From assembly GCA_002409375.1 (NCBI GenBank), contig DHNF01000006.1, forward strand, positions 5,118-18,750: DNA of 13,633 nucleotides, given 5' to 3'. The DNA is from Ruminococcaceae bacterium UBA5423. GTDB taxonomy: Bacteria > Bacillota > Clostridia > Oscillospirales > Acutalibacteraceae. The notes beneath the pieces were generated by a model, which saw nothing but the letters and a program-made list of their open reading frames with translations, had not been told where the DNA came from and made no database searches. The translations under genes and the position numbers were made by a program. The first letter of the stretch is position 1. The number at the start of each line of letters is the position of its first letter. Shown here in pieces: positions 14 through 10,617 of the stretch.

Positions 14-1006
14 CTATTCCTGTAAATCATACTGTCTTACTATTTCCTCACATGCATTTTTAACCGTTTTTGGGTTTACATACACTTTGTCAGGCGTAAA
101 CCCTGTGTCCGCTGTAACTTTATAAATGCGATTAAGGTCATTTTCGTCGGATAGATGGCCGCTGATAACAAGGCTTCCATCCGATAGATTATATTGATAT
201 TGTGGAAATTCCTGACTTAGTACGTCTTGAAGCCCTTGCGTGTTTTTGTCCCATATTGTCAAGATGATTTTATCATAAGTTTTGCAAAAATTATCGATGG
301 TTCCCGCATATACAATTTTACCGTTTATTAGGTATGCAGTGTGGCTGCATACTCGCCCGATTGTTTCACTGTCCGTACTGGATAAGACGAGTGTTCTGTC
401 AGTGTTTTTTAGTAATCCTACAATAATGTATATTGATTCTCTCTGTTTGTCAGAGTATATATAATCCGGATAGTTAAAAATTATAAGCTCACTTGCCGAA
501 AAAAACCCGGAGATGAGTATAATTATTGATTTATATTCTTTTGTAAGGGAATAAATGGGCGAAAGCGATATGTTCCCTAACCCCACCGTTTGCAAAAAAT
601 TAAAAATTTCTTTTTGTCTGGTTATGATGTTGCCCTTTCTATTCGCTGTGATGAACATAAGAAATTCAAGTACGTTCATGTTGTCATATATCATGGTGGG
701 AGTTCCTGCATAAAATACACGCGGAAGTATGATTCTCTTTTGCTGCATCATACCGTGCTCAAAAAGCACACACTTTCCGCTGTAGTATGGTTTGATATTA
801 GCCATAATTTCAAGCAAAAGTTTGATGTCAAAGAGGGATTTTCCATTGATACCCCAAATCTCTCTTTTTTTTATGCAAATATTAATGTAGTCCAATACCC
901 GCCTTAACTCGTAGTGATTTCCCCAAAGCAGTTCACTCGAGCAAAGCTTTTCCATAAGAACAACAGTATCATAATCTTTTGGTATCTCTCTGATGCATTT
1001 TTTCAT
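14..1006 (-). CDS. ABC-transporter ATPase-like protein with degenerate catalytic motifs (pseudo-ATPase)
   Basis: The 330-residue protein follows the layout of ABC-2-type (CcmA-like) ATP-binding subunits, but the nucleotide-handling motifs are eroded. Where the P-loop GxxGxGKT should be, it has WGINGKS (residues 51-57), two to three residues too short. The LSGGQ/LSKGM signature reads SLTKEY (153-158). Walker B LLILDEP reads LIIFNYP (174-180), so both the Mg-binding Asp and the catalytic Glu are lost. The H-loop SSH reads SST (209-211). The surrounding scaffold is still recognisable: KPYYSG after the P-loop, and LINGKIVYAGT after the H-loop. The start ATG follows GGAGAG at good spacing. The gene lies 30 bases after the signal peptidase gene, so the two probably share a transcript. 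The reading frame is intact, so this looks like a maintained non-catalytic protein rather than a decayed gene. A membrane partner could lie beyond the left edge. The ABC-fold assignment is fairly sure; the role is unknown. Confidence 0.75.
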   Translation of the reverse strand: MKKCIREIPKDYDTVVLMEKLCSSELLWGNHYELRRVLDYINICIKKREIWGINGKSLFDIKLLLEIMANIKPYYSGKCVLFEHGMMQQKRIILPRVFYAGTPTMIYDNMNVLEFLMFITANRKGNIITRQKEIFNFLQTVGLGNISLSPIYSLTKEYKSIIILISGFFSASELIIFNYPDYIYSDKQRESIYIIVGLLKNTDRTLVLSSTDSETIGRVCSHTAYLINGKIVYAGTIDNFCKTYDKIILTIWDKNTQGLQDVLSQEFPQYQYNLSDGSLVISGHLSDENDLNRIYKVTADTGFTPDKVYVNPKTVKNACEEIVRQYDLQE

Positions 1007-1036: not shown

Positions 1037-1558
1037 TTAAGTCAGAGGTACTTTTGTGACAAACACCGCAATTACTTGGTCGGGACTCAACGGCTCAGGA
1101 TCTGTTGAATTAGCAATATTATCTCCCTTTGTACTATATAGAACCCTTCCATCTTTATCGTGTGCAATCTCTGTTATTCTATGTGTGACGGTAGAGCCTT
1201 TTGTGGTCTTGAAAGTTACGATATCACCCACGTTAAGCGCAGTCACATCCTTGGGAATTTTACTGATAATTACTGAACCGACTTTTAGTGTCGGCTCCAT
1301 GCTTCCCGATTCGATTACATAAAGCTGGTAGCCAAGCAGATTCGGAGTTTCACCTTTACTCTTTGCTATTAAAACAAATGCGAGAACAAAAAGAAGAAAT
1401 AATATCATTAAACTCAAAAGCATTCCGGTTACTCGTTTTGTCCAAAATATCAGCTTGTTCGTACTCTCTGCTTTAACTGATTTGGATTCGGATGCTTTTT
1501 TTAATTCTTCCTTCATAGCTTCTATTTGTTCATTTGTCGTATAAATAATTCCTGACAT
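1037..1558 (-). CDS. sipW: SipW-like (ER-type) signal peptidase I
   Basis: This 173-residue membrane protease belongs to the archaeal/eukaryotic-type signal peptidase I family, which uses a Ser-His pair instead of Ser-Lys. In Bacillus subtilis SipW removes the signal peptides of TasA and TapA. A hydrophilic, Lys/Glu-rich N-terminus (1-40) precedes one strong membrane segment (about 44-66). The catalytic Ser lies in SGSMEPTL (Ser86), the His in TVTHRI (His126), and the Asp-bearing region is STKGDNI (142-148). The protein stops at FVTKVPLT, soon after the last conserved strand, so the C-terminal membrane helix of B. subtilis SipW is absent. The start ATG is preceded by AGGGTG at about 8 bases. 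Three proteins with SipW-type signal sequences are encoded directly upstream on the same strand, and these are its likely substrates. A terminator and a 300-base gap separate it from them, so it probably has its own promoter. Confidence 0.9.
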   Translation of the reverse strand: MSGIIYTTNEQIEAMKEELKKASESKSVKAESTNKLIFWTKRVTGMLLSLMILFLLFVLAFVLIAKSKGETPNLLGYQLYVIESGSMEPTLKVGSVIISKIPKDVTALNVGDIVTFKTTKGSTVTHRITEIAHDKDGRVLYSTKGDNIANSTDPEPLSPDQVIAVFVTKVPLT

Positions 1559-1660: not shown

Positions 1661-1720
1661 AACCGATAAGCAACAATTTTTTTATAGTAGCTGCAGAAAC
1701 ATTTTAAGATAATTCAAAAT

Positions 1721-1747
1721 AAAAGCTGTTTTAAAGAAACAGCTTTT
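1721..1747 (-). terminator. Rho-independent terminator after the tasA-like gene
   Basis: A perfect 11-bp stem (arms 1721-1731 and 1737-1747) has a 5-base loop and is followed on the minus strand by ATTTTG and further AT-rich sequence. It lies 110 bases beyond the tasA-like stop codon. The stretch 1748-1856 holds only this 3' untranslated region, with two GGTTACA repeats and nothing else recognised. The plus strand also has a T-rich tail after the stem, so it could act in both directions, but no plus-strand gene ends here. Confidence 0.7.
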
Positions 1748-1856
1748 ATTTGTTGTGTTTTAGAACTTTGGTTACATTCTAACTATTAAAATTTTTGGTC
1801 ACAAGGTTACACAATGTGGACGCAGTAGGACGAAAATCTAAAGAAGAAGCATTCTG

Positions 1857-2387
1857 TTACTTTTGAGTACCTGTTACATTTACGTTAACCGCTGTCCCAA
1901 AGTCTGCGCCTGCAAAGTTTATATCGCTGTCATCGTTGCCAGGCCAGTTAATAGTTACAGTATATGTATGTGTCTGGCCCTCCTGTGCAAGTATAAACTC
2001 ATCAGCAAAACTAATTGTACCGACACCCGTTTGTGTCCCCACTTTATTGCCGTTCTCATCAGTTACAGTAACAACAAGGGGGTCTATTGCAGATTTGCCT
2101 TCTGCTGCAGCTACATCGACGGTAAGTGCAAGGTCCATAGCCGTTTCGGAAACAATTTCACCGTCGAAATTCTTGATTGAGAATTCCCATGTCTTCGTTT
2201 CTGCCGGAGCAATTTTCACATTTTTAGCAAAGGCGTCTGTGCCGTTTCCAAGAAGGATAAATTCTTTTGCAACAACGCTGCCTTCGGCAAGACCATCGAC
2301 GGTTGTTGTATACATTGCCAAAGTTCCAGAAATGATAGAAACTGCCACTACCATAACAAGGGATAGAAAAACAAGAGCTTTTTTCAT
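1857..2387 (-). CDS. TasA/camelysin (CalY)-like exported protein with SipW-type signal peptide
   Basis: The 176-residue secreted protein starts with a hydrophobic segment (3-20) and the SipW-type motif SGTLAMYT (20-27), so processing by the neighbouring ER-type signal peptidase is expected. The mature part is a beta-rich domain of the TasA/camelysin group. TasA polymerises into the protein fibres of Bacillus biofilms and camelysin is a surface protein. It shares clear blocks with the larger paralogue at 3133-4074: GSVVxKEFI, GTDxFxxNVKIAP, WxFSxxN, INWPGNDDSDINFAG (IYWPSNDEIDINYAG in the paralogue) and a final strand FxTAxNVxxT. It lacks any extra C-terminal domain and ends GTQK. A strong GGAGGA site precedes the ATG. 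It is the last of three genes for SipW-type exported proteins and is followed by a terminator. The fibre-subunit role is inferred from the family. Confidence 0.85.
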   Translation of the reverse strand: MKKALVFLSLVMVVAVSIISGTLAMYTTTVDGLAEGSVVAKEFILLGNGTDAFAKNVKIAPAETKTWEFSIKNFDGEIVSETAMDLALTVDVAAAEGKSAIDPLVVTVTDENGNKVGTQTGVGTISFADEFILAQEGQTHTYTVTINWPGNDDSDINFAGADFGTAVNVNVTGTQK

Positions 2388-2554: not shown

Positions 2555-3124
2555 TCAGTATCTTAAAGTGAGCGGTATATTAAGCTTGGCACATTCCTCT
2601 GCGGGATTGGTGCAAACTTGCAATCTAACATCATTCGCAAGGCTGCGCTCGCGTGTTTCAATCACATACAGGGAGTCGTCAAATAAATCCTGCGCGGTCT
2701 TAATCTTATAAAAACCGCTCATCTGGATTTCTGTACCATCATAGAAAAAGATTTTTGTGCCGGGTTCAAAAAATATTATGTAATAATCTATATCGTCCTT
2801 ATTTATTTTGCCTATTTCAAATGCTGCATTTTTTCTGTCTTGTCTGATATTCCCGCAAAAGGCTATGAAATAGTAATCGTTTCTTATCCATTTGTGGTAT
2901 CTGATATCCATTTCCTGCAATATGTTTACATCTTTAGGAAGAGCTGAATAATTAGGTGTAAGACGGTTACTGATTTTTTCTATGTCTGGGCTTATTTGTA
3001 CCAAATGAGTGCTGTTTATAGTGTAACTTGATAAGGTTCCCGCCGAAGCGGTAGTGATAATTGCACAAATAAGGAAGAGAATAATTAATAACTTAAATTT
3101 CAAATTAAAAATCATCCTTTCCAT
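2555..3124 (-). CDS. Exported protein with SipW-type signal peptide, unknown domain
   Basis: The 189-residue protein is not recognised beyond its signal. A basic N-terminus and hydrophobic core (9-27) end in SAGTLSSYT (27-35), the same GTLxxYT motif as in its two neighbours, so it should be a third substrate of the SipW-like peptidase. The mature part is not camelysin-like. It is rich in aromatic residues and beta-prone strands (NDYYFIAFCGN, IDYYIIFFEPGTKIFFYDG) and has three cysteines (FCG, VCTN, EECA), which could form a disulphide outside the cell. The start is uncertain: the first ATG has a poor ribosome binding site, and an ATG three codons on is preceded directly by GGAAAGG. The start sits only 8 bases after the stop of the TasA-CBM gene, so the two are co-transcribed and probably translationally coupled. 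By analogy with TapA beside TasA it might be an assembly or anchoring partner, which is a guess. Confidence 0.75.
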   Translation of the reverse strand: MERMIFNLKFKLLIILFLICAIITTASAGTLSSYTINSTHLVQISPDIEKISNRLTPNYSALPKDVNILQEMDIRYHKWIRNDYYFIAFCGNIRQDRKNAAFEIGKINKDDIDYYIIFFEPGTKIFFYDGTEIQMSGFYKIKTAQDLFDDSLYVIETRERSLANDVRLQVCTNPAEECAKLNIPLTLRY

Positions 3125-3132
3125 GCCGATGG

Positions 3133-4074
3133 TTAATTGAATGAAATTCCATACTGGTATCGAACGGTTGTTTCAAAACCATTAATCATAACCGAAGTTA
3201 TCGGATCCTCTCCTTTACCTACAGCGAGACCTCCGAATGTTATGCTTTCACCAGGCGCTATCGACTGATTATAATTGTCAGGGTGTCTGAAAGTATAAGA
3301 GCCGGTATTCAAATCTGAGGATACAAGAACTGATTGCCAATGCTGATATACCTGACCGGGATATATCATGCTTATGTTCCAATTATGTATAGTTGTATCG
3401 GATGTATTAGTAATTGTTATTCTAAACTGGTGCTTGTTAATGCCATTTTCATCATCAATCCATGGTGCCCCGGCTTCATAAAGCACAGATGTATCGGTTT
3501 GCCGTGGCTCGTCTTCGTTGTCGTCTCCATTGTTAATGTCGAAAGGTACCTGTGATGCTGTTGCAGAAACATTGATTGCTGTACTGAAATTGTTACCTGC
3601 GTAGTTTATATCAATTTCATCATTGCTTGGCCAGTATATCTCAACGGTATAATCATTTTTTTGACCGGTAGGGGAAAGCAGAAAAGAATTATATACGTTA
3701 ATTAAACCTGTACCGGTTACTGAATCAATTTTTTTGCCGTTTGCATCTTTGATTGTAATAATTAAAGGCTCGATTGCTTGCTTGTCTGTTGATGCTGTTA
3801 CTTCGAATGCAAGATTATAATACAAATCAGTCTCAGTAATCAACAAATCATCATAATTTCTAACCGAGAATTGCCATACAACTAAATCTTTAGGTGCTAT
3901 TTTTACATTCTGTTGAAATATATCTGTGCCGTCCGCTGTGAAAATAAATTCCTTGCCGACAACGCTGCCCGATGCGACCTTATCTAATGTTATAGTGTAG
4001 CTTGCAAGCGTTCCTGCGAGAAGAGAGCATGATATGGTAAATATTAATGCTGCAATTATTATTGGTTTTTTCAT
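3133..4074 (-). CDS. TasA/camelysin-like protein fused to a CBM2-like carbohydrate-binding domain
   Basis: The 313-residue exported protein has two parts. Residues 1-27 form a SipW-type signal (hydrophobic core, then GTLASYT at 21-27). Residues 28-175 form a TasA/camelysin-like domain, paralogous to the protein at 1857-2387. An acidic linker (181-194, DNEDEPRQTD) leads to about 197-295, which resembles CBM2 cellulose-binding modules: FRITITNTSDTTIHNW, a second W in YQHWQSV, the block NYNQSIAPGESITFGG, and exposed Trp at 205, 232 and 246. I choose the ATG at 4072-4074 because AGGTGA lies 6 bases upstream; the in-frame GTG at 4081-4083 is part of that AGGTG site. It is the first gene after the c-di-GMP riboswitch. 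A likely role is a matrix fibre subunit that also binds a polysaccharide, either cell-wall glycan or plant or self-made cellulose. The CBM2 family call is by motif only. Confidence 0.82.
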   Translation of the reverse strand: MKKPIIIAALIFTISCSLLAGTLASYTITLDKVASGSVVGKEFIFTADGTDIFQQNVKIAPKDLVVWQFSVRNYDDLLITETDLYYNLAFEVTASTDKQAIEPLIITIKDANGKKIDSVTGTGLINVYNSFLLSPTGQKNDYTVEIYWPSNDEIDINYAGNNFSTAINVSATASQVPFDINNGDDNEDEPRQTDTSVLYEAGAPWIDDENGINKHQFRITITNTSDTTIHNWNISMIYPGQVYQHWQSVLVSSDLNTGSYTFRHPDNYNQSIAPGESITFGGLAVGKGEDPITSVMINGFETTVRYQYGISFN

Positions 4075-4106: not shown

Positions 4107-4146
4107 TAAAAAAAGCCGGCTGCCACGGATGCAGTGGCAGCTGGCT
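4107..4146 (-). terminator. Riboswitch expression-platform terminator
   Basis: On the minus strand a 13-bp GC-rich stem (arms 4134-4146 and 4114-4126, one A-C mismatch, 7-base loop) is followed by seven T. It lies between the c-di-GMP aptamer and the first structural gene. Its 5' arm contains the TGCC that closes aptamer helix P1, so the two structures compete. This geometry predicts that ligand binding favours read-through. Confidence 0.88.
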
Positions 4147-4208
4147 GTCATCTCCATATATGGATTAGACCCTTTAGCTTTGCGTCACAAACTTTCGTCT
4201 GTTTTGCC
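4136..4208 (-). ncRNA. Cyclic-di-GMP-I (GEMM-I) riboswitch aptamer
   Basis: Read on the minus strand, the class I c-di-GMP aptamer elements appear in order. GGCA (4205-4208) opens P1. P2 is a perfect 6-bp stem capped by GAAA (4187-4202). The hallmark GACGCAAAGC follows (4177-4186). Next come AAAGGGTCTAA, a P3 hairpin TCCATATATGGA (4153-4164), then GATGACAGCC, close to the common clostridial GATGATAGCC. TGCC (4136-4139) closes P1. The GAAA loop and its receptor arm are the known tertiary contact of this class. It controls the operon for the SipW-type exported proteins. Exact ligand-contact residues were not mapped. Confidence 0.88.
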
Positions 4209-4239
4209 TTTTTCATGTTTTATTAATGTCTTTGTAAAC

Positions 4240-4269
4240 ACTATAAGTCATTGATAAGACATTTGTCAA
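4240..4269 (-). promoter_or_regulatory. Promoter of the c-di-GMP riboswitch/tasA operon
   Basis: On the minus strand there is TTGACA (consensus -35, 4264-4269), an 18-base spacer and TATAGT (-10, 4240-4245). Transcription would start near 4233, about 25 bases before the aptamer. This is the expected place for the promoter of the riboswitch-controlled operon. Confidence 0.75.
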
Positions 4270-4280
4270 TGACTTATAGT
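4251..4280 (+). promoter_or_regulatory. Mirror-image plus-strand promoter-like sequence
   Basis: Because of the palindrome, the plus strand carries TTGATA (4251-4256), an 18-base spacer and TATAGT (4275-4280). If active, it would make an RNA antisense to the 3' end of the DUF4317 gene. No plus-strand gene starts within the next 1.3 kb, so it may be silent or produce a non-coding RNA. Confidence 0.35.
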
Positions 4281-4401: not shown

Positions 4402-5526
4402 TCACGAAATAAAAATGTTTACACCGTTTACTTCGACGCCGTCGTTCGCGCGGATTAATATGTACTTTGCTCCATCAATAATCCGTGTTTCAACCAGGTT
4501 GCTGTGCTCTGGGTTTACACGAATTGTCACATTGGGGGTGCGAACCTCAAACTGCTTGGTATCAATAATATTTCGTGGACTAATTTCAGTATTAGCGCCA
4601 AATTCGGCATCGTATTTTTCTTCAAACTCGGTCAAACGATCTTCCGAAACACCACATGATTCAAGCATGCCTTTGACTGTTTTTTTGGAAATCAACAGTG
4701 GTTCTGTTTCTTTATTTGTCTTATGCTCCTCAATCATCTCTGATAATTGATCGTGTACCACCTGCACAACATCTAAATTACATTCTTCGGCGATGCTATC
4801 GCCTAAAACAGATTGGAATGTTTCTTTCTGCACAGCAGCAGGCATGGGTATTTCGCTTTTAAACACTGATTCCAAAAACTCCGGATGGATATCCGAAGTG
4901 TTGCGGGAGTAGTAGACCGAGTTATAAATATTAGCGCTGCGATCATCAAAGGCCGGAAACATAAACCCAAGCTCCGGAGATGATACATACCAGTCTGATG
5001 CCAAATTTCTAAATCTGTTTTCATATGTATAGTAACTAAGCGCCGGCTTTGTCAGTTTAATGGGGCAGACACTGCATAAAAAGTATGAAAACACCTCTGA
5101 GGAATCCTGATTTTGCCCGTCTTTTGAATAGAATGGAACATCATATTTATCATAAGCCAAAAGAATCAGATAATTGCCTTCTATCTGAAGTGTCTTAATA
5201 ACTCGATCATAAAACTCATGCACAGCGTTGTCGTCCTCCAAAGAGGAATCACGAATTGCCATGAGCAGCTTGTGTTCTTCCCCTTCAAGGACTTGCTTGG
5301 TTGCAAATTCGATATCGATCAAATTTTTTCCTAACGTTCCGGAAAGCGTCTTCTTTATAATTGTTAAAAGTGCATCTGTTTCTTCCTGCGACATCGTACC
5401 TGTGGATTGTTTAAACTCGGATATTATTTCATTTTTGTCGTTTACATAACAGCCGCGCAACTGAAAAATATTACCCTTATCCGAACGGAAACGGCGTCGA
5501 ATTTCTGCAATTTCTTTTTCGTTCAT
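4402..5526 (-). CDS. DUF4317 family protein, function unknown
   Basis: The 374-residue protein matches the DUF4317 family by its opening MNEKEIAEIRRRF and overall length. The family is widespread in Clostridia and has no known function. The first part (about 1-120) is helical and charged. A middle section has aromatic stretches (YLILLAYDKYDVPF, YYTYENRF) and a single CSVC pair typical of an intracellular reducing environment. The C-terminal third has a helical KTVKGMLESCGVSEDRLTEFEEKY block followed by a beta-rich tail. There is no signal peptide or membrane helix, so it should be cytosolic. I start it at the ATG at 5524-5526, because GAGGGTG lies about 6 bases upstream; an in-frame ATG five codons earlier overlaps that site. 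It is a single gene with its own promoter, unrelated in sequence to the secretion genes. Confidence 0.88.
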   Translation of the reverse strand: MNEKEIAEIRRRFRSDKGNIFQLRGCYVNDKNEIISEFKQSTGTMSQEETDALLTIIKKTLSGTLGKNLIDIEFATKQVLEGEEHKLLMAIRDSSLEDDNAVHEFYDRVIKTLQIEGNYLILLAYDKYDVPFYSKDGQNQDSSEVFSYFLCSVCPIKLTKPALSYYTYENRFRNLASDWYVSSPELGFMFPAFDDRSANIYNSVYYSRNTSDIHPEFLESVFKSEIPMPAAVQKETFQSVLGDSIAEECNLDVVQVVHDQLSEMIEEHKTNKETEPLLISKKTVKGMLESCGVSEDRLTEFEEKYDAEFGANTEISPRNIIDTKQFEVRTPNVTIRVNPEHSNLVETRIIDGAKYILIRANDGVEVNGVNIFIS

Positions 5527-5647: not shown

Positions 5648-5676
5648 TTGATATTATTCAATCTTGGGAGTATAAT
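5648..5676 (+). promoter_or_regulatory. Promoter of the envelope operon
   Basis: TTGATA (5648-5653), a 17-base spacer and a consensus TATAAT (5671-5676) form a strong vegetative promoter. Transcription would start near 5683, inside the adjacent inverted repeat. The open reading frame can be extended back to a TTG at 5648, but that codon is the start of this -35 box, which argues against it as a translation start. Confidence 0.75.
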
Positions 5677-5679
5677 CAA

Positions 5680-5710
5680 TGCATACATAATTTGGGTAAT
5701 TATGTATGCA
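5680..5710. repeat. Perfect 13-bp inverted repeat at the envelope operon start site
   Basis: TGCATACATAATT (5680-5692) and AATTATGTATGCA (5698-5710) are exact reverse complements around TGGGT. The repeat begins 4 bases after the -10 box, covers the predicted transcription start, and contains the ATG at 5702. It could be a repressor operator, or an RNA hairpin that hides the first start codon. Confidence 0.75.
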
Positions 5711-7618
5711 GCGTTTGATATGGAGATGATAAGGTTGGAATCGGGATTAACATCCAATCCTCCGATGGGTCAGACAGCAGACAGTAAACTGCCTCAAGCA
5801 ACTCCCGATGCCCATCGGCAAGATATTATAACAAAATCTGAAGATACAATAGATAATGCAGGGTTAAATCAGATAACACCTGAATCTAAGCCGGAAAATA
5901 TAAAAACACAAACGCAGTCTTCAAAGCTTTCAAAAGCACTTTCGATTGTTCATCGCAACTTCGGCAAAAGACTGTTTTTATCTATGATAATCACTTTTTG
6001 TGCATGCTTTACATTCTTGTTTTTTGGTCCTGTTGAAATAACCGCTTTCAGTCAGGATTCATTACATTTTACTGTTTATAATATTGCGCCGGTTATGGCA
6101 GTGTTTGCGCTTGCCGTGTGTTTAGCAACTTCTTTTATCATTTCAATATTTAAAGAAACAATCCACAATCGCATAATTACGGGTGTATTTTCATTTTTAT
6201 TTTGCGGATATATCCAGGGAAATTTGTTAAGCGGTAAAATGGGAGCACTTGATGGGAATCCGGTTCAGTGGCATACTCAAAAAACCGAAATGCTTTTAGA
6301 TTTTTTCATATGGTTTATGATTTTTTATATATTTTATTTTTTGCTAAAGACTAATAAAAACATTTGGACAAAAATAATAAAATTCGTTCCCCCCGCATTA
6401 GTTGTCATGCAGTCAGTCGCATTGATAAGTATCTTTTCAGGGGTTTCTGTGAAATCCATGGATACAAACAAAGATTACCTTTCAACGGCTGATTTCACTA
6501 CATATTCTTCGAAAAAAAATACGCTTGTTTTTGTGTTGGACAGGTTAGATTATGAATTTATTGACGAGGTGCTGAATGATGATCCGGATTTTTTCAATCA
6601 GATGGACGGATTTACAAGCTATACCAACGCCATTTCAGAGCATGCAAGAACACGACCTGCACTTAATTTTCTTTTGACCGGCTGTGAGGATGGATTGTGG
6701 GAAAAACCGGCTGATGAATTTTTTGATGATTCATGGAGTTCTAAAATAAACCTTCTGGACGATTTAAACTCTGCTGATTATAAAGTTGATATTTATACTG
6801 AGATTGATAATATATTTGGTAATATCGGCTCAGCCGTAAATTATGTTTCTAATTATTCATGCAATGCCAATAAGTTAAATAAAAAACAAGTTATAAAAAA
6901 TCTGATGACTTTATCCGCATATCGCTATGCACCTATTACTATGAGACCGTTTTTCTGGTGCTATACCGACACTGTTAATAAAGGCATATTTAAAGACAGC
7001 ATTGTTTACGAGGTTGACGAGTTACAGTATGCCGATAAAATTTCTGATTTTAAATTAGAAAAGAATAAGTATTTTAAATTATACCATTTCAACGGTTCAC
7101 ACCCTCCATATGTCTTAAACGAGGACGGTACAAAAGACGAAAAAGGAACAAGCTCGCTTGAACAAACCAAGGGAGCCTTTAACATATTGTTCTCAGCATT
7201 TAGAAAAATGAAAGAGCAGGGGATATACAAGGATGCTGCAATTATTATTACAGCCGATTATGGCAGTGCGTTATCAGATACAGATCCTGTACAAAAAGCT
7301 ACCACAATCGGGCTGTTTTACAAACCGACAGGAAGTGCCGACACTCCGCTTGAAACTTCCCGTGCTCCCGTTTCATTAAAAAACATTCCCGCTACTATAG
7401 CGAAATCTGCAGGACTGAATACTAAAAAATACGGGGCAGCACTTGACGAGGTCGGCGAGGACGAAAATGTTACAAGATTTTTTTATAAAGGAATTATAAA
7501 CGATTATGGAACAGAAATTATGGCATATAAATATGAAATCAACGGTGATGCCAGCAATTTTAACAACTGGAAAATCATCAATGAGATAAACGTTAAAGAA
7601 TCACATTCATTTTATTAA
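5702..7618 (+). CDS. Membrane-anchored alkaline-phosphatase-superfamily (LTA synthase/sulfatase-like) protein
   Basis: From the ATG at 5702 it is 638 residues: a hydrophilic, probably cytosolic N-terminus (about 1-90), some five membrane helices (about 91-250), and an extracellular sulfatase-type domain. Motifs of that domain are visible. They include NTLVFVLDRLDYE (metal-binding Asp280), HARTRPALNFLLTG, where the nucleophile Thr is expected (Thr317), YHFNGSHPPY (His467) and IIITADYGS (Asp519). In relatives the last motif is DHG; here the metal-binding His is Tyr520. LTA synthases and OpgB-type enzymes of this fold move phosphoglycerol from phosphatidylglycerol to a glycan or polymer. The start is uncertain: ATG 5702 has a weak GGGT site, and ATG 5720, ATG 5726 and TTG 5735 are alternatives. 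It is the first gene of a plus-strand operon that also carries a CDP-glycerol transferase domain. Confidence 0.78.
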   Translation: MYAAFDMEMIRLESGLTSNPPMGQTADSKLPQATPDAHRQDIITKSEDTIDNAGLNQITPESKPENIKTQTQSSKLSKALSIVHRNFGKRLFLSMIITFCACFTFLFFGPVEITAFSQDSLHFTVYNIAPVMAVFALAVCLATSFIISIFKETIHNRIITGVFSFLFCGYIQGNLLSGKMGALDGNPVQWHTQKTEMLLDFFIWFMIFYIFYFLLKTNKNIWTKIIKFVPPALVVMQSVALISIFSGVSVKSMDTNKDYLSTADFTTYSSKKNTLVFVLDRLDYEFIDEVLNDDPDFFNQMDGFTSYTNAISEHARTRPALNFLLTGCEDGLWEKPADEFFDDSWSSKINLLDDLNSADYKVDIYTEIDNIFGNIGSAVNYVSNYSCNANKLNKKQVIKNLMTLSAYRYAPITMRPFFWCYTDTVNKGIFKDSIVYEVDELQYADKISDFKLEKNKYFKLYHFNGSHPPYVLNEDGTKDEKGTSSLEQTKGAFNILFSAFRKMKEQGIYKDAAIIITADYGSALSDTDPVQKATTIGLFYKPTGSADTPLETSRAPVSLKNIPATIAKSAGLNTKKYGAALDEVGEDENVTRFFYKGIINDYGTEIMAYKYEINGDASNFNNWKIINEINVKESHSFY

Positions 7619-7645
7619 TTTTAACATACAGGGGAGTGGTTAATT

Positions 7646-7960
7646 TTGAAAAAAATCCGCAATATTTCAGTTTTTATTCTGTATTTTATCTTAGGTATTT
7701 TTCTTTTCTCATCAACTGCCAGTGCATATATTGACCCTTCGGCAATGACCTATATTATTCAAATTGTTGTAGGAATTATTATTGCAAGCGGCGCTGCCCT
7801 GGGCTTTTATTTTAAAAAAATCAAAAGGAAATTTAAGAAAAAGCACGAGGAACAGGAAGATTACGAAACTCAAGCAAATGTGACACTTAACGAAAGCGAT
7901 GAGTTTGACGACAGCAATTTAACTGAAGAAGAAATAAACAGTTTGTATGGAAAGAAATAA
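7646..7960 (+). CDS. Small membrane protein with YIDPSAMTY motif
   Basis: The 104-residue protein starts at TTG with GGGGAG about 8-10 bases upstream. It has an N-terminal hydrophobic segment ending in a good signal peptidase site (SSTASA, 22-27). The motif YIDPSAMTYIIQ (28-39) comes next and runs straight into a second membrane helix (about 36-57). A very basic patch follows (KKIKRKFKKKH, 57-67), then an acidic tail (68-104, NESDEFDDSN, LTEEEINSLYG). If the signal is cleaved, the mature N-terminus would be YIDPS outside the membrane, with a cytosolic charged tail. I recall similar small YIDPS proteins beside sulfatase-like membrane genes in Clostridia, but no function is known to me. The next gene overlaps its end by 14 bases, so the two are translationally coupled. 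Confidence 0.75.
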   Translation: MKKIRNISVFILYFILGIFLFSSTASAYIDPSAMTYIIQIVVGIIIASGAALGFYFKKIKRKFKKKHEEQEDYETQANVTLNESDEFDDSNLTEEEINSLYGKK

Positions 7961-8477
7961 AAAACTAAAAAGCATAAAAGGCAAATGCAAATACTTATTG
8001 ATTATTTTTATTGCTCTGCTTACAGCATTGCTTTTAAACGCCTTTGTGGTTTTAAACACAAGGATTATAGGCAAGTCAATGTATCCTTTGTTAAATCAAA
8101 ACGATTGGGTATTTGTCAATCGGATAGCCTTTGTCAACTGCGAACCCTCGTTTGGAGATATCGTAGTTTTAAAAAAGCCGGATTTAACAAATGAAACGAT
8201 TATAAAAAGGATTATCGGAACTCCGCATGATACTGTAGAAATAAAAAACGGCAAGCTTTATTTAAATGGCAATTTAGTTGAAAACGATTTTGCACAAATG
8301 GATGAGAATGAAAATATGAGTATTATAACAGTTCCAAAAAACTGTTATTTTGTGATGGGGGACAATACAAGCGAATCAAACGACTCTCGCAAATGGACAA
8401 ATCCGTTTGTTAAAAATAATGAAATCATTGGTAAGGTAATTTTTAAATATTTTCCTAAACCGCGGATAATAAAGTGA
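7947..8477 (+). CDS. lepB: Signal peptidase I, Gram-positive (Ser/Lys) type
   Basis: The 176-residue protein has a cytosolic basic N-terminus, one membrane helix (about 16-36) and the family boxes in order. These are GKSMYPLL with nucleophile Ser44, ETIIKRIIGTPHDTVEI with general base Lys87, and MGDNTSESNDSRKW (137-150). It cleaves signal peptides of Sec-exported proteins on the outer face of the membrane. The length is normal for Gram-positive Lep/Sip enzymes. It starts inside the previous gene with no clear ribosome binding site, so translation depends on coupling. The preceding gene encodes a protein with a classical cleavage site, a plausible client. This is mechanistically different from the Ser/His enzyme at 1037-1558, so the window encodes two kinds of signal peptidase. 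Confidence 0.92.
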   Translation: MERNKKLKSIKGKCKYLLIIFIALLTALLLNAFVVLNTRIIGKSMYPLLNQNDWVFVNRIAFVNCEPSFGDIVVLKKPDLTNETIIKRIIGTPHDTVEIKNGKLYLNGNLVENDFAQMDENENMSIITVPKNCYFVMGDNTSESNDSRKWTNPFVKNNEIIGKVIFKYFPKPRIIK

Positions 8478-8499
8478 AATAATAAAGGAACATTGGTTT

Positions 8500-10617
8500 A
8501 TGGGCATTGTTGGAGAAATACTGGGTACACCCCTTGGCTACATCATGAAGTTTTGCTATGACATAATTAACGACTATGGGTTTTCTATAATAATTTTCAC
8601 TGTATTTACAAAGGTGATTTTATTTCCTATATCTTTATGGGTTCAAAAGAATTCGATTAAAATGGTCAGGATGCAGCCCCAACTCAGCGCTTTAAAATAT
8701 CAATATGTCGACGACAAAGACGCCCTGCTTGATGCACAAAGTGAGCTTTATAAAAAAGAAAAATATAATCCTTTTGCGAGCACAATTCCTTTGCTTTTTC
8801 AAATTCCACTTATTTTTGGATTGATTGATGTTGTATACAGACCGTTAAAGCATATCTTGCATTTGCCGCAAGGGGCAATCGATGCTTTTACGCAAAAGAC
8901 TACCGAGATTTTAGGGACAACTCAGCTTGCCTCCTCTCCTGAACTAATTGTTATGCGGTGCATGAATGACCAAAATAATTATCAAGCGTTTATGTCGTTG
9001 CAGAACGGCACACTGCAGGGCAGTGATGTTAGTGCAATTATAAAAAGTGTGCAAAGCATGAATATGAATTTTTTTGAATTTGACCTTGCCGCAAAACCTG
9101 AAATACTGAGCATTAACCTGCTTTTTTTAATCCCTGTGTTAGCTGGATTAAGTGCGTTTATTATGTGCTTTGTGCAAAATAAAATCAATGTTTTGCAAAT
9201 TGAGCAAACAGCCTTGGCCAGATGGGGACAAACAATATTTATGATTGCGTTTTCAACTTATTTTGCTTTTTTAGTTCCGGCGGGAGTCGGTCTTTATTGG
9301 ATATTCGGCAACCTGTTTTCAATTCCTGTTATGCAACTTGTCAATATCATCTATAATCCGGGCAGGCACATTGACTATAAAACTTTAAATAAATTAAAGT
9401 TAAAGGCAAAGGAAAACAATAAAATAAAAAGGGAAAATAACAGGCTTTCAAAAAAATATTATCGTGAAATATGTAAAAACAATAATCTTAACAACATGAA
9501 CCTGATGTTCTATTCAGAGCAAAGCGGGTTTTATAAATACTTTGAAAATATCATCGACGCTTTACTGAAAAAATTTGATGAAACTATTTATTATGTTACA
9601 AGTGATTCTAAGGATCAAATTTTTGATATTAAAAATCCGAGAATAAAGGCTTATTATATCAGCGGAAATCATTTAATAGCTTTAATGATGAAGCTGGAAT
9701 GTAAAATGGTCGTTATGACTACACCTGATTTGGAAAAATATCATATAAAGCGTTCAAAAGTCAGAAAAAATATTGAATATATCTATGTTGACCATGGCTG
9801 CACAAGCTTAAACCTGACTTACCGTCCAGGTGCTTTAGACCATTTTGACACAATTTTTGTGGTAAGTCGCAACCAGGGCATTGAAATACGCGAAATGGAA
9901 AAGCTAAGAGGCACTAAACGAAAAATGATTGTAAAATGCGGTTATGGACTGATTGACAATATGATTGCGTCTTATCGTAAGCTGGATAAAGCCGAAAATA
10001 AAAAGCCGGTAATTTTAATTGCGCCTTCATGGCAGTATGACAATATATTGGATAGCTGTCTTGATAATATTCTGACAGGACTTGTCTGCGATAAATATAA
10101 AGTGATAATAAGGCCACATCCCCAGTACATAAAGCGCTTTCCTGTTCAAATGGAAAGTATAATAGAGAAATACAAAGATAAGTTTAGCGAGGATTTTATA
10201 ATCGAAACGGATTTTTCGTCCAATGTTACAGTGTATACTGCCGACATGGTGATAACCGACTGGTCATCAATCGCCTATGAATTCAGCTTTACAACAGACA
10301 AGCCAACACTGTTTATCAACACACAAATGAAAATCGTAAATAAGGACTATGACAAAATAAAGCTTAAGCCCTTTGATATTTTTGCAAGGAACATCGTAGG
10401 CAAAGCAATCAGCAAGGAAGAAACCGTTAACATATCCTGCGCTGTCGACAGCTTGCTTGAAAATCGTGAAAGCTATGTTCAAAGCATTAGAAGACTTAAA
10501 AACAGCTATTTTTATAATCTTGGACACAGTGGAGAGGTTGCGGCCGATTATATAATTGAAAGGCTGTCAAATCGGAAAAACTGCACCGCAGACGCTAAGG
10601 AAGCTGCTGCTATTTAA
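8500..10617 (+). CDS. Fusion of YidC/Oxa1 insertase domain and CDP-glycerol glycerophosphotransferase (TagB/TagF-like)
   Basis: Residues 1-290 are a YidC/Oxa1/Alb3 membrane insertase domain: FTVFTKVILFPISLWVQ, KMVRMQPQLSALKYQY, YNPFASTIPLLFQIPLIFGL, and late helices with VPAGVGLYWIFGNLF. The usual positively charged groove residue is Lys38 here rather than Arg. A long basic linker (about 291-335, KLKAKENNKIKRENNRLSKK) joins it to a glycerophosphotransferase domain (335-690). That domain has VDHG (430-433), GYG (481-483), IIRPHPQYIKRFP (536-548) and TDWSSIAYEFSF (586-597), the His and Asp/Ser motifs known from TagB and TagF. These enzymes add glycerol phosphate from CDP-glycerol to teichoic-acid chains on the inner face of the membrane. 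The frame is continuous across the junction. A GGAAC ribosome binding site precedes the ATG. It is the last gene of the operon. The insertase part may be a membrane anchor or channel for the polymer enzyme. Confidence 0.88.
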   Translation: MGIVGEILGTPLGYIMKFCYDIINDYGFSIIIFTVFTKVILFPISLWVQKNSIKMVRMQPQLSALKYQYVDDKDALLDAQSELYKKEKYNPFASTIPLLFQIPLIFGLIDVVYRPLKHILHLPQGAIDAFTQKTTEILGTTQLASSPELIVMRCMNDQNNYQAFMSLQNGTLQGSDVSAIIKSVQSMNMNFFEFDLAAKPEILSINLLFLIPVLAGLSAFIMCFVQNKINVLQIEQTALARWGQTIFMIAFSTYFAFLVPAGVGLYWIFGNLFSIPVMQLVNIIYNPGRHIDYKTLNKLKLKAKENNKIKRENNRLSKKYYREICKNNNLNNMNLMFYSEQSGFYKYFENIIDALLKKFDETIYYVTSDSKDQIFDIKNPRIKAYYISGNHLIALMMKLECKMVVMTTPDLEKYHIKRSKVRKNIEYIYVDHGCTSLNLTYRPGALDHFDTIFVVSRNQGIEIREMEKLRGTKRKMIVKCGYGLIDNMIASYRKLDKAENKKPVILIAPSWQYDNILDSCLDNILTGLVCDKYKVIIRPHPQYIKRFPVQMESIIEKYKDKFSEDFIIETDFSSNVTVYTADMVITDWSSIAYEFSFTTDKPTLFINTQMKIVNKDYDKIKLKPFDIFARNIVGKAISKEETVNISCAVDSLLENRESYVQSIRRLKNSYFYNLGHSGEVAADYIIERLSNRKNCTADAKEAAAI

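Follow-up and report, generated by a model that had tools for sequence, protein, structure and literature searches.

A predicted class I c-di-GMP ON switch upstream of SipW-dependent surface-protein genes in an uncultured Acutalibacteraceae bacterium

Introduction

Class I riboswitches for cyclic di-GMP (c-di-GMP) are known to turn on adhesins in both Gram-positive and Gram-negative bacteria. Bc2 of Bacillus thuringiensis is an ON switch of this class acting on cap (PMC4933901), and Vc1-gbpA of Vibrio cholerae is an ON switch acting on a polysaccharide-binding adhesin (PMC4744006). In Clostridioides difficile, flgB lies under the class I riboswitch Cdi-1-3 and goes down with c-di-GMP (PMC6200980), pili and adhesins go up through class II switches, and of the seven class I loci that respond, six are lowered and one (CD630_19900) is raised (PMC6200980; PMC11477304). 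Here we describe a candidate ON switch of class I in front of genes for SipW-dependent exported proteins in Ruminococcaceae bacterium UBA5423 (Oscillospirales, Acutalibacteraceae). It lies on the minus strand of a 13,633-nucleotide stretch (assembly GCA_002409375.1, contig DHNF01000006.1, positions 5,118 to 18,750), hereafter the window, in which all coordinates are counted from the first letter.

A first-pass annotation made from the sequence alone had placed at 4107..4213 a class I c-di-GMP riboswitch gating a SipW/TasA-type matrix operon. We followed it up by computation. We estimate at roughly 0.75 the probability that the element is a c-di-GMP-responsive transcriptional ON switch for SipW-dependent surface-protein genes. 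The computed basis of this estimate is the aptamer with its ligand residues, a terminator exclusive with it, the recurrence of the layout in relatives, a CBM2 fold in the first gene product and a SipW-class signal peptidase.

Results

A class I c-di-GMP aptamer with a canonical ligand site

The aptamer occupies 4132..4218 on the minus strand and was detected by three covariance models. The proposed check by a search with RF01051 gave, in a scan of the whole genome, a match at 4218-4133 (−) of 77.2 bits, well above the cut-off of 35 (E 1.3e-15). A scan of the window against Rfam gave RF03167 at 4217-4132 (−) with 67.2 bits against a cut-off of 59 (E 2.2e-14), and our own model R1, in which the window is one of the 27 underlying rows, scored 78.9 bits. 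The class and strand named at first pass were thus confirmed and the element stands where it had been put, except that the aptamer begins at 4217/4218, ahead of 4213.

In the Vc2 riboswitch, c-di-GMP is contacted by G20, A47 and C92 (PMC4744006). Using that numbering, we assigned the positions in the window by hand on the RF03167 alignment, and all three equivalents are kept, as G4208, A4181 and C4137. The alignment also corrected the helix assignment: GGCA and TGCC had been read as the two strands of P1, but the first G of GGCA is G20, the first C of TGCC is C92, and, at the base of P2, the GC of GGC is paired to that of GACGC. P1 itself is a weak outer helix formed by U4215-A4135, G4214-C4136 and C4217-G4132.

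Since cmscan kept RF03167 for the window in clan competition, the aptamer might belong to the variant c-di-GMP-I-GGC and sense another ligand, cGAMP (cyclic GMP-AMP) or one not yet described. Substitution of A at the G20 place is the typical mark of cGAMP-selective variants, and it occurs in the relatives L010, L015, L017, L023 and L030 (L numbers designate loci and their leaders). The window itself, however, has the canonical G20 and C92 and scores 10 bits better with RF01051 than with RF03167. The RF03167 consensus, moreover, has a G in GACGCGAAGC at the A47 place, where the window has A4181; this G replacing A47 is what we take the name GGC to denote. Membership in the variant family was rejected on that position although the score passes the family cut-off, and we regard a different ligand as very improbable. 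Judged by its sequence, the window aptamer is a class I c-di-GMP aptamer, predicted to bind c-di-GMP. The genome, which is 77% complete, encodes three GGDEF domains. As a separate observation, L023 precedes a type IV pilin-like gene.

A terminator that shares the aptamer 3' strand

An intrinsic terminator lies at 4108..4146 on the minus strand. Its stem (4146-4114), first described as 13 bp, consists of 12 pairs and one A/C mismatch, with a folding energy of −21.8 kcal/mol; none of 200 dinucleotide shuffles folded as well (z −4.3). The seven T reported after the stem are present at 4114-4108, where the first is paired. In its 5' arm the terminator incorporates 14 nt of the aptamer 3' strand, comprising not just the P1 closing strand that had been noticed but also the basal part of P3 (AGCC) and C92. 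The duplex between the aptamer 3' strand and the expression platform reached −24.3 kcal/mol, which none of 300 shuffles equalled.

Because the folded aptamer and the terminator are mutually exclusive, an ON sign is predicted, as at first pass. At low c-di-GMP, the terminator would capture the shared strand and transcription would stop before the first gene, whose ATG at 4074 lies 33 nt beyond the T run. At high c-di-GMP, the ligand would lock that strand into the aptamer and so block the terminator. The CBM2-tailed protein encoded by the first gene, a 189-aa protein and probably a 176-aa protein would then be made, exported and cut by SipW, and the products may form polysaccharide-binding surface fibres.

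The downstream genes

Three genes for exported proteins follow on the minus strand, their SipW-type signal motifs recognised by eye. The first (3133..4074, start ATG chosen by eye) encodes a 313-aa protein with the motif AGTLASYT and a C-terminal CBM2 module; we refer to it as the adhesin gene. The second (2555..3124) encodes the 189-aa protein (AGTLSSYT), and the third (1857..2387) the 176-aa protein (SGTLAMYT), which is homologous to the N-terminal part of the 313-aa protein. They are followed by the gene for a SipW-class (ER-type) signal peptidase (1037..1558, −), which passed TIGR02228 with 86.4 bits against a cut-off of 51.85; with NF046067, the SipW model of Bacillus, it scored 110.2 bits, under the equivalog cut-off of 190. 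Next comes an ABC-ATPase-like protein without a Walker A motif (14..1006, −; ABC ATPase models under cut-off), and the cassette also includes a membrane protein. The link to SipW made at first pass was therefore borne out by both the peptidase and the three motifs.

The proposed likeness to TasA or camelysin was not. The 176-aa protein matched neither family (NF046066, PF12389), and in set A3, which has 13 members including the window's, two matched PF12389 (best 0.0018; the best protein at 18.5 bits against a cut-off of 22.5) and one matched NF046066, at 0.03. A profile of the 176-aa protein found no TasA among solved structures. The model of the N-terminal domain is weak (block means 34-79 over residues 1-190) and the structures listed for it are generic beta-sandwiches; the lack of TasA among the listed chains proves nothing either way. 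The label 'matrix operon' may suit these genes.

The C-terminal module of the 313-aa protein passed the PF00553 (CBM2) cut-off and has the CBM2 fold. Three exposed aromatic residues form the binding face of the Cex CBM2a, and the putative counterparts in the window are W205, W246 and Y268; of 71 homologues, 66, 61 and 35, respectively, have an aromatic residue there. That the third is aromatic in just 35 of them leaves room for a riboswitch that is real and ON but drives a protein other than a polysaccharide-binding fibre subunit, the CBM2-like domain serving, for example, as a contact within a surface or transporter complex. The ABC-like and membrane proteins of the cassette would fit such a role, as would related proteins in Desulfosporosinus and Dehalobacter, neither of which is known as a cellulose degrader. 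We consider this role rather unlikely.

Two further features lie inside the cassette. Between the 176-aa gene and sipW lies a strong, A/T-rich terminator-like hairpin (1717..1751), with z −7.1 when folded as minus strand; the terminator scan lists it on the plus strand only. Since it precedes sipW, we place sipW and the ABC-like gene only provisionally on the riboswitch-controlled transcript. Upstream of the 176-aa gene, at 2506-2546 (−), the aptamer core GACGCAAAGC stands alone, with just 5.5 bits and no Rfam match. At the corresponding place, loci L031, L032 and L033 carry a complete class I aptamer, and the core is possibly the remnant of a decayed second aptamer.

Outside the cassette, a divergent cluster (5648-10617, +) encodes a protein that matches a sulfatase model below threshold, a second signal peptidase I of the bacterial type (TIGR02227), and a protein combining YidC-like and glycerophosphotransferase domains.

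Occurrence of riboswitch and cassette in relatives

We collected 25 loci by scanning named genomes with an 18-row alignment. RF01051 matches stand directly upstream of the adhesin gene in nine (L031, L032, L037, L048 and L050-L054), where L048 and L004, which have the same aptamer, were counted as one. L037 carries two leaders in a row (4545-4631 and 4844-4930, +), each with aptamer, hairpin and, by eye, promoter-like sequence. L033 carries its only aptamer within the operon, upstream of the second exported gene, a place where L031 and L032 also have one; L034 was not judged, the gene start being near the contig edge. All 13 RF01051 matches in the 25 loci are on the strand of the gene, and model R1 found the same places.

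The 176-aa protein or a homologue was found by BLAST at all 25 loci. The SipW-class peptidase and the ABC-like protein were each found, with the window proteins as queries, at 22; the exceptions are L031 and L050, whose contigs end shortly after the gene, and L054, where a different gene follows. Relatives of the 189-aa protein occur at six loci (L031, L032, L034, L035, L048 and L051), and L033 has a protein of similar look in that place. The core of the cassette is thus found at loci that have the riboswitch as well as at loci that lack it, and the 189-aa gene is a variable part of the cassette. None of the 22 ABC-like relatives has a Walker A motif (GxxxxGK[ST]), which leaves a conserved ABC-like protein without an ATP site beside SipW substrates.

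A tree built from the N-terminal parts places the window together with L032 (support 95/92). The presence of the riboswitch requires four changes on this tree when L033 and L034 are scored as lacking it, and 13 rows without a riboswitch, seven of them from Desulfosporosinus, form a group supported at 93/88. The adhesin gene is rare: it was found in one of 295 genomes of the order, namely the window's own, and in two of 12 genomes of the genus.

Recurrence of the layout and its limits

The layout was compared in 11 leaders, the window and ten leaders at the nine named loci with a riboswitch (two from L037). Each of the 11 has a hairpin that shares 6-19 nt with the 3' end of the aptamer and has U-rich sequence behind it; the folding energies of these hairpins range from −8.2 to −21.8 kcal/mol. 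The strand-against-platform control was strong in four, with as low an energy in 0 of 300 shuffles for the window, 2 for L004 = L048, and 1 each for L050 and L051. Compared with its own P1 partners, the shared strand was paired in 36 of 44 cells, a count reached in 23 of 5000 shuffles (best of three registers). With its own terminator, it gave an energy matched in 13 of 3000 swaps between loci. Across the set as a whole, the shared strand pairs better within its own locus than with partners taken from the others.

Several observations weigh against an ON switch at the adhesin gene. P1 of the window is weak, with two adjacent pairs. The same control was not strong in seven of the 11 leaders (L031a 34, L032a 85, L037a 67, L037b 221, L052 36, L053 85 and L054 25 per 300 shuffles), and the hairpins called in L032a and L052 are not clean terminators. 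The P1 and terminator swap statistics ignore kinship, and P1 pairing, taken there as the best of three registers, did not exceed shuffles at single fixed registers (linker 4-8). L052 carries an A in place of C92, and strands of other loci fit its terminator better than its own shared strand does. At 14 of the 25 loci, seven of them in Desulfosporosinus, there is no riboswitch at the gene. Within the window, the hairpin at 1717-1751 may reduce riboswitch-driven transcription of sipW or cut it off. In C. difficile, finally, no downstream gene or transcript was detected for five of 12 class I riboswitches (PMC6200980), and a high-scoring match is thus no guarantee of cis regulation.

Some of these points would also fit a switch that is OFF or unresponsive, with the hairpin a constitutive attenuator and control exerted at the promoter. 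The promoter TTGACA-18-TATAGT (11/12) lies within a palindrome at 4240..4280 on the minus strand, whose 18-nt arms (94%) fall exactly over the −35 and −10 elements; it is possibly an operator, or else two facing promoters. Upstream of L037a there is another palindrome, similar in size but different in sequence, and in neither case did any of 60 shuffles reach the size. The weak P1, the seven leaders not clearly past the duplex control and the Bc1 class I riboswitch, which binds c-di-GMP without a change in expression (PMC11218506), point the same way. On the other hand, no palindrome of such size was found upstream of the other nine of the 11 adhesin leaders (for L048, within the 54 nt available), and both the aptamer and the overlap recur across divergent leaders, where a dead element would hardly be kept. 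We therefore hold the attenuator to be improbable, and an ON switch remains our preferred reading.

SipW-type targets in the order

Of 295 genomes sampled from the order, 83 have an RF01051 match. For a survey of downstream genes we used 169 leaders, composed of 30 of the 31 matches of one listing, 27 loci and 112 places among the matches listed, with members of tandems counted singly. A signal-motif test of the downstream genes was positive in five (L001, L004, L012, L027 and L029), against one positive in the divergent control; by eye L012 looks false, and L027 and L029 precede one and the same gene. A SipW-class peptidase above the TIGR02228 cut-off is the first gene after L016, L130 and both L131 leaders. 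Proteins with AFGWF/AWF-type motifs (L013, L020, L025, L089 and L174) were left out, and scans of those of L013, L025, L089 and L174 gave no supporting family. By this conservative count, about eight of the 169 leaders precede a SipW-type substrate or a SipW-class peptidase. The survey suggested at first pass thus yielded further cases and no general rule: SipW export is a recurring but minor target of class I riboswitches in the order, and a general link between the two is not supported.

The other leaders precede, by eye, exported proteins, flagellar genes and pilins. Seven (L059, L077, L112, L134, L140, L145 and L150) stand before similar VTC-domain-like genes, also by eye.

A second class I riboswitch at flagellar genes

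The same genome has another RF01051 match (G000:C72:5034-5117, 68.6 bits), 109 nt before a Flg_bb_rod gene (flgB-like). The next genes are a Flg_bb_rod/Flg_bbr_C gene (flgC-like), fliE and a partial frame that looks fliF-like by eye. Here, a terminator comes after the aptamer, and its 5' arm pairs with the aptamer 3' strand in an antiterminator arrangement. The duplex has −21.9 kcal/mol (1 of 300 shuffles as low), and an OFF sign is therefore predicted. This sign is less sure because a further stem lies between, though it agrees with that measured for C. difficile flgB (PMC6200980). In the genus relative G001, the same gene again has the flagellar-type layout (L022), the adhesin gene has an ON-type leader (L004), and a SipW-class gene is preceded by an overlapping terminator (L016). 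Two class I RNAs may thus let c-di-GMP exert opposite effects on the adhesin and the flagella.

Discussion

Our analysis supports, in the first-pass annotation, the ON switch and the connection with SipW and sets aside TasA/camelysin; it adds the CBM2 module, the cassette of the relatives, the flagellar riboswitch and the hairpin at 1717-1751, none of which had been mentioned. If the ON switch is as predicted, RNA would link c-di-GMP directly to SipW-type export and a surface protein of carbohydrate-binding type in uncultured Clostridia, and this link would predict when cells attach and to what. A wider proposal, which we put forward tentatively and with more doubt than confidence, is that c-di-GMP governs lifestyle by means of RNA only: two class I riboswitches of opposite sign would turn off the flagellar operon and turn on a SipW-dependent cassette not described before (a fibre with a CBM2 tail, further exported subunits, SipW, an ABC-like protein that has lost its ATP site, a membrane protein), with which the cell would attach to cellulose or chitin. 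Because the two signs predicted in this genome are opposite, such a choice between swimming and attachment could be tested in vitro with the two RNAs and a single ligand.

No publication in which a c-di-GMP riboswitch precedes a SipW cassette or the gene for a CBM2 protein turned up in a search that covered few subscription journals and not the original GEMM papers. As a target of a class I riboswitch, the SipW/CBM2 cassette appears to be new, whereas ON switches of this class on adhesins are already known.

The pairing of a SipW-type peptidase with its exported substrates is familiar from tapA-sipW-tasA of Bacillus subtilis, where they lie side by side. There, and at sipW/BsaA of Clostridium perfringens (PMC7395162), the peptidase adjoins its substrates as in the window. 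The window proteins fall short of the TasA/camelysin family cut-offs, and in the available text of PMC7395162 the words riboswitch and c-di-GMP appear in the reference list only.

As for regulation, Bc2-cap shares with the window a class I aptamer and an anti-terminator ON layout before a surface adhesin in a Gram-positive host (PMC4933901). Its target is a wall-anchored collagen adhesin, whereas the window has a SipW-type CBM2 protein with the peptidase in the cassette. Vc1-gbpA likewise joins a class I aptamer to a secreted polysaccharide-binding adhesin that is raised by c-di-GMP, the corresponding sign in the window being predicted; it differs in its Gram-negative host and its single secreted protein, and the available part of PMC4744006 describes no such terminator overlap. 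The C. difficile regulon resembles the genome studied here in placing flagella and adhesion under opposite riboswitch control within one Firmicute. There, however, the adhesins are under class II switches, whereas here both leaders are of class I and the opposition would lie in their expression platforms.
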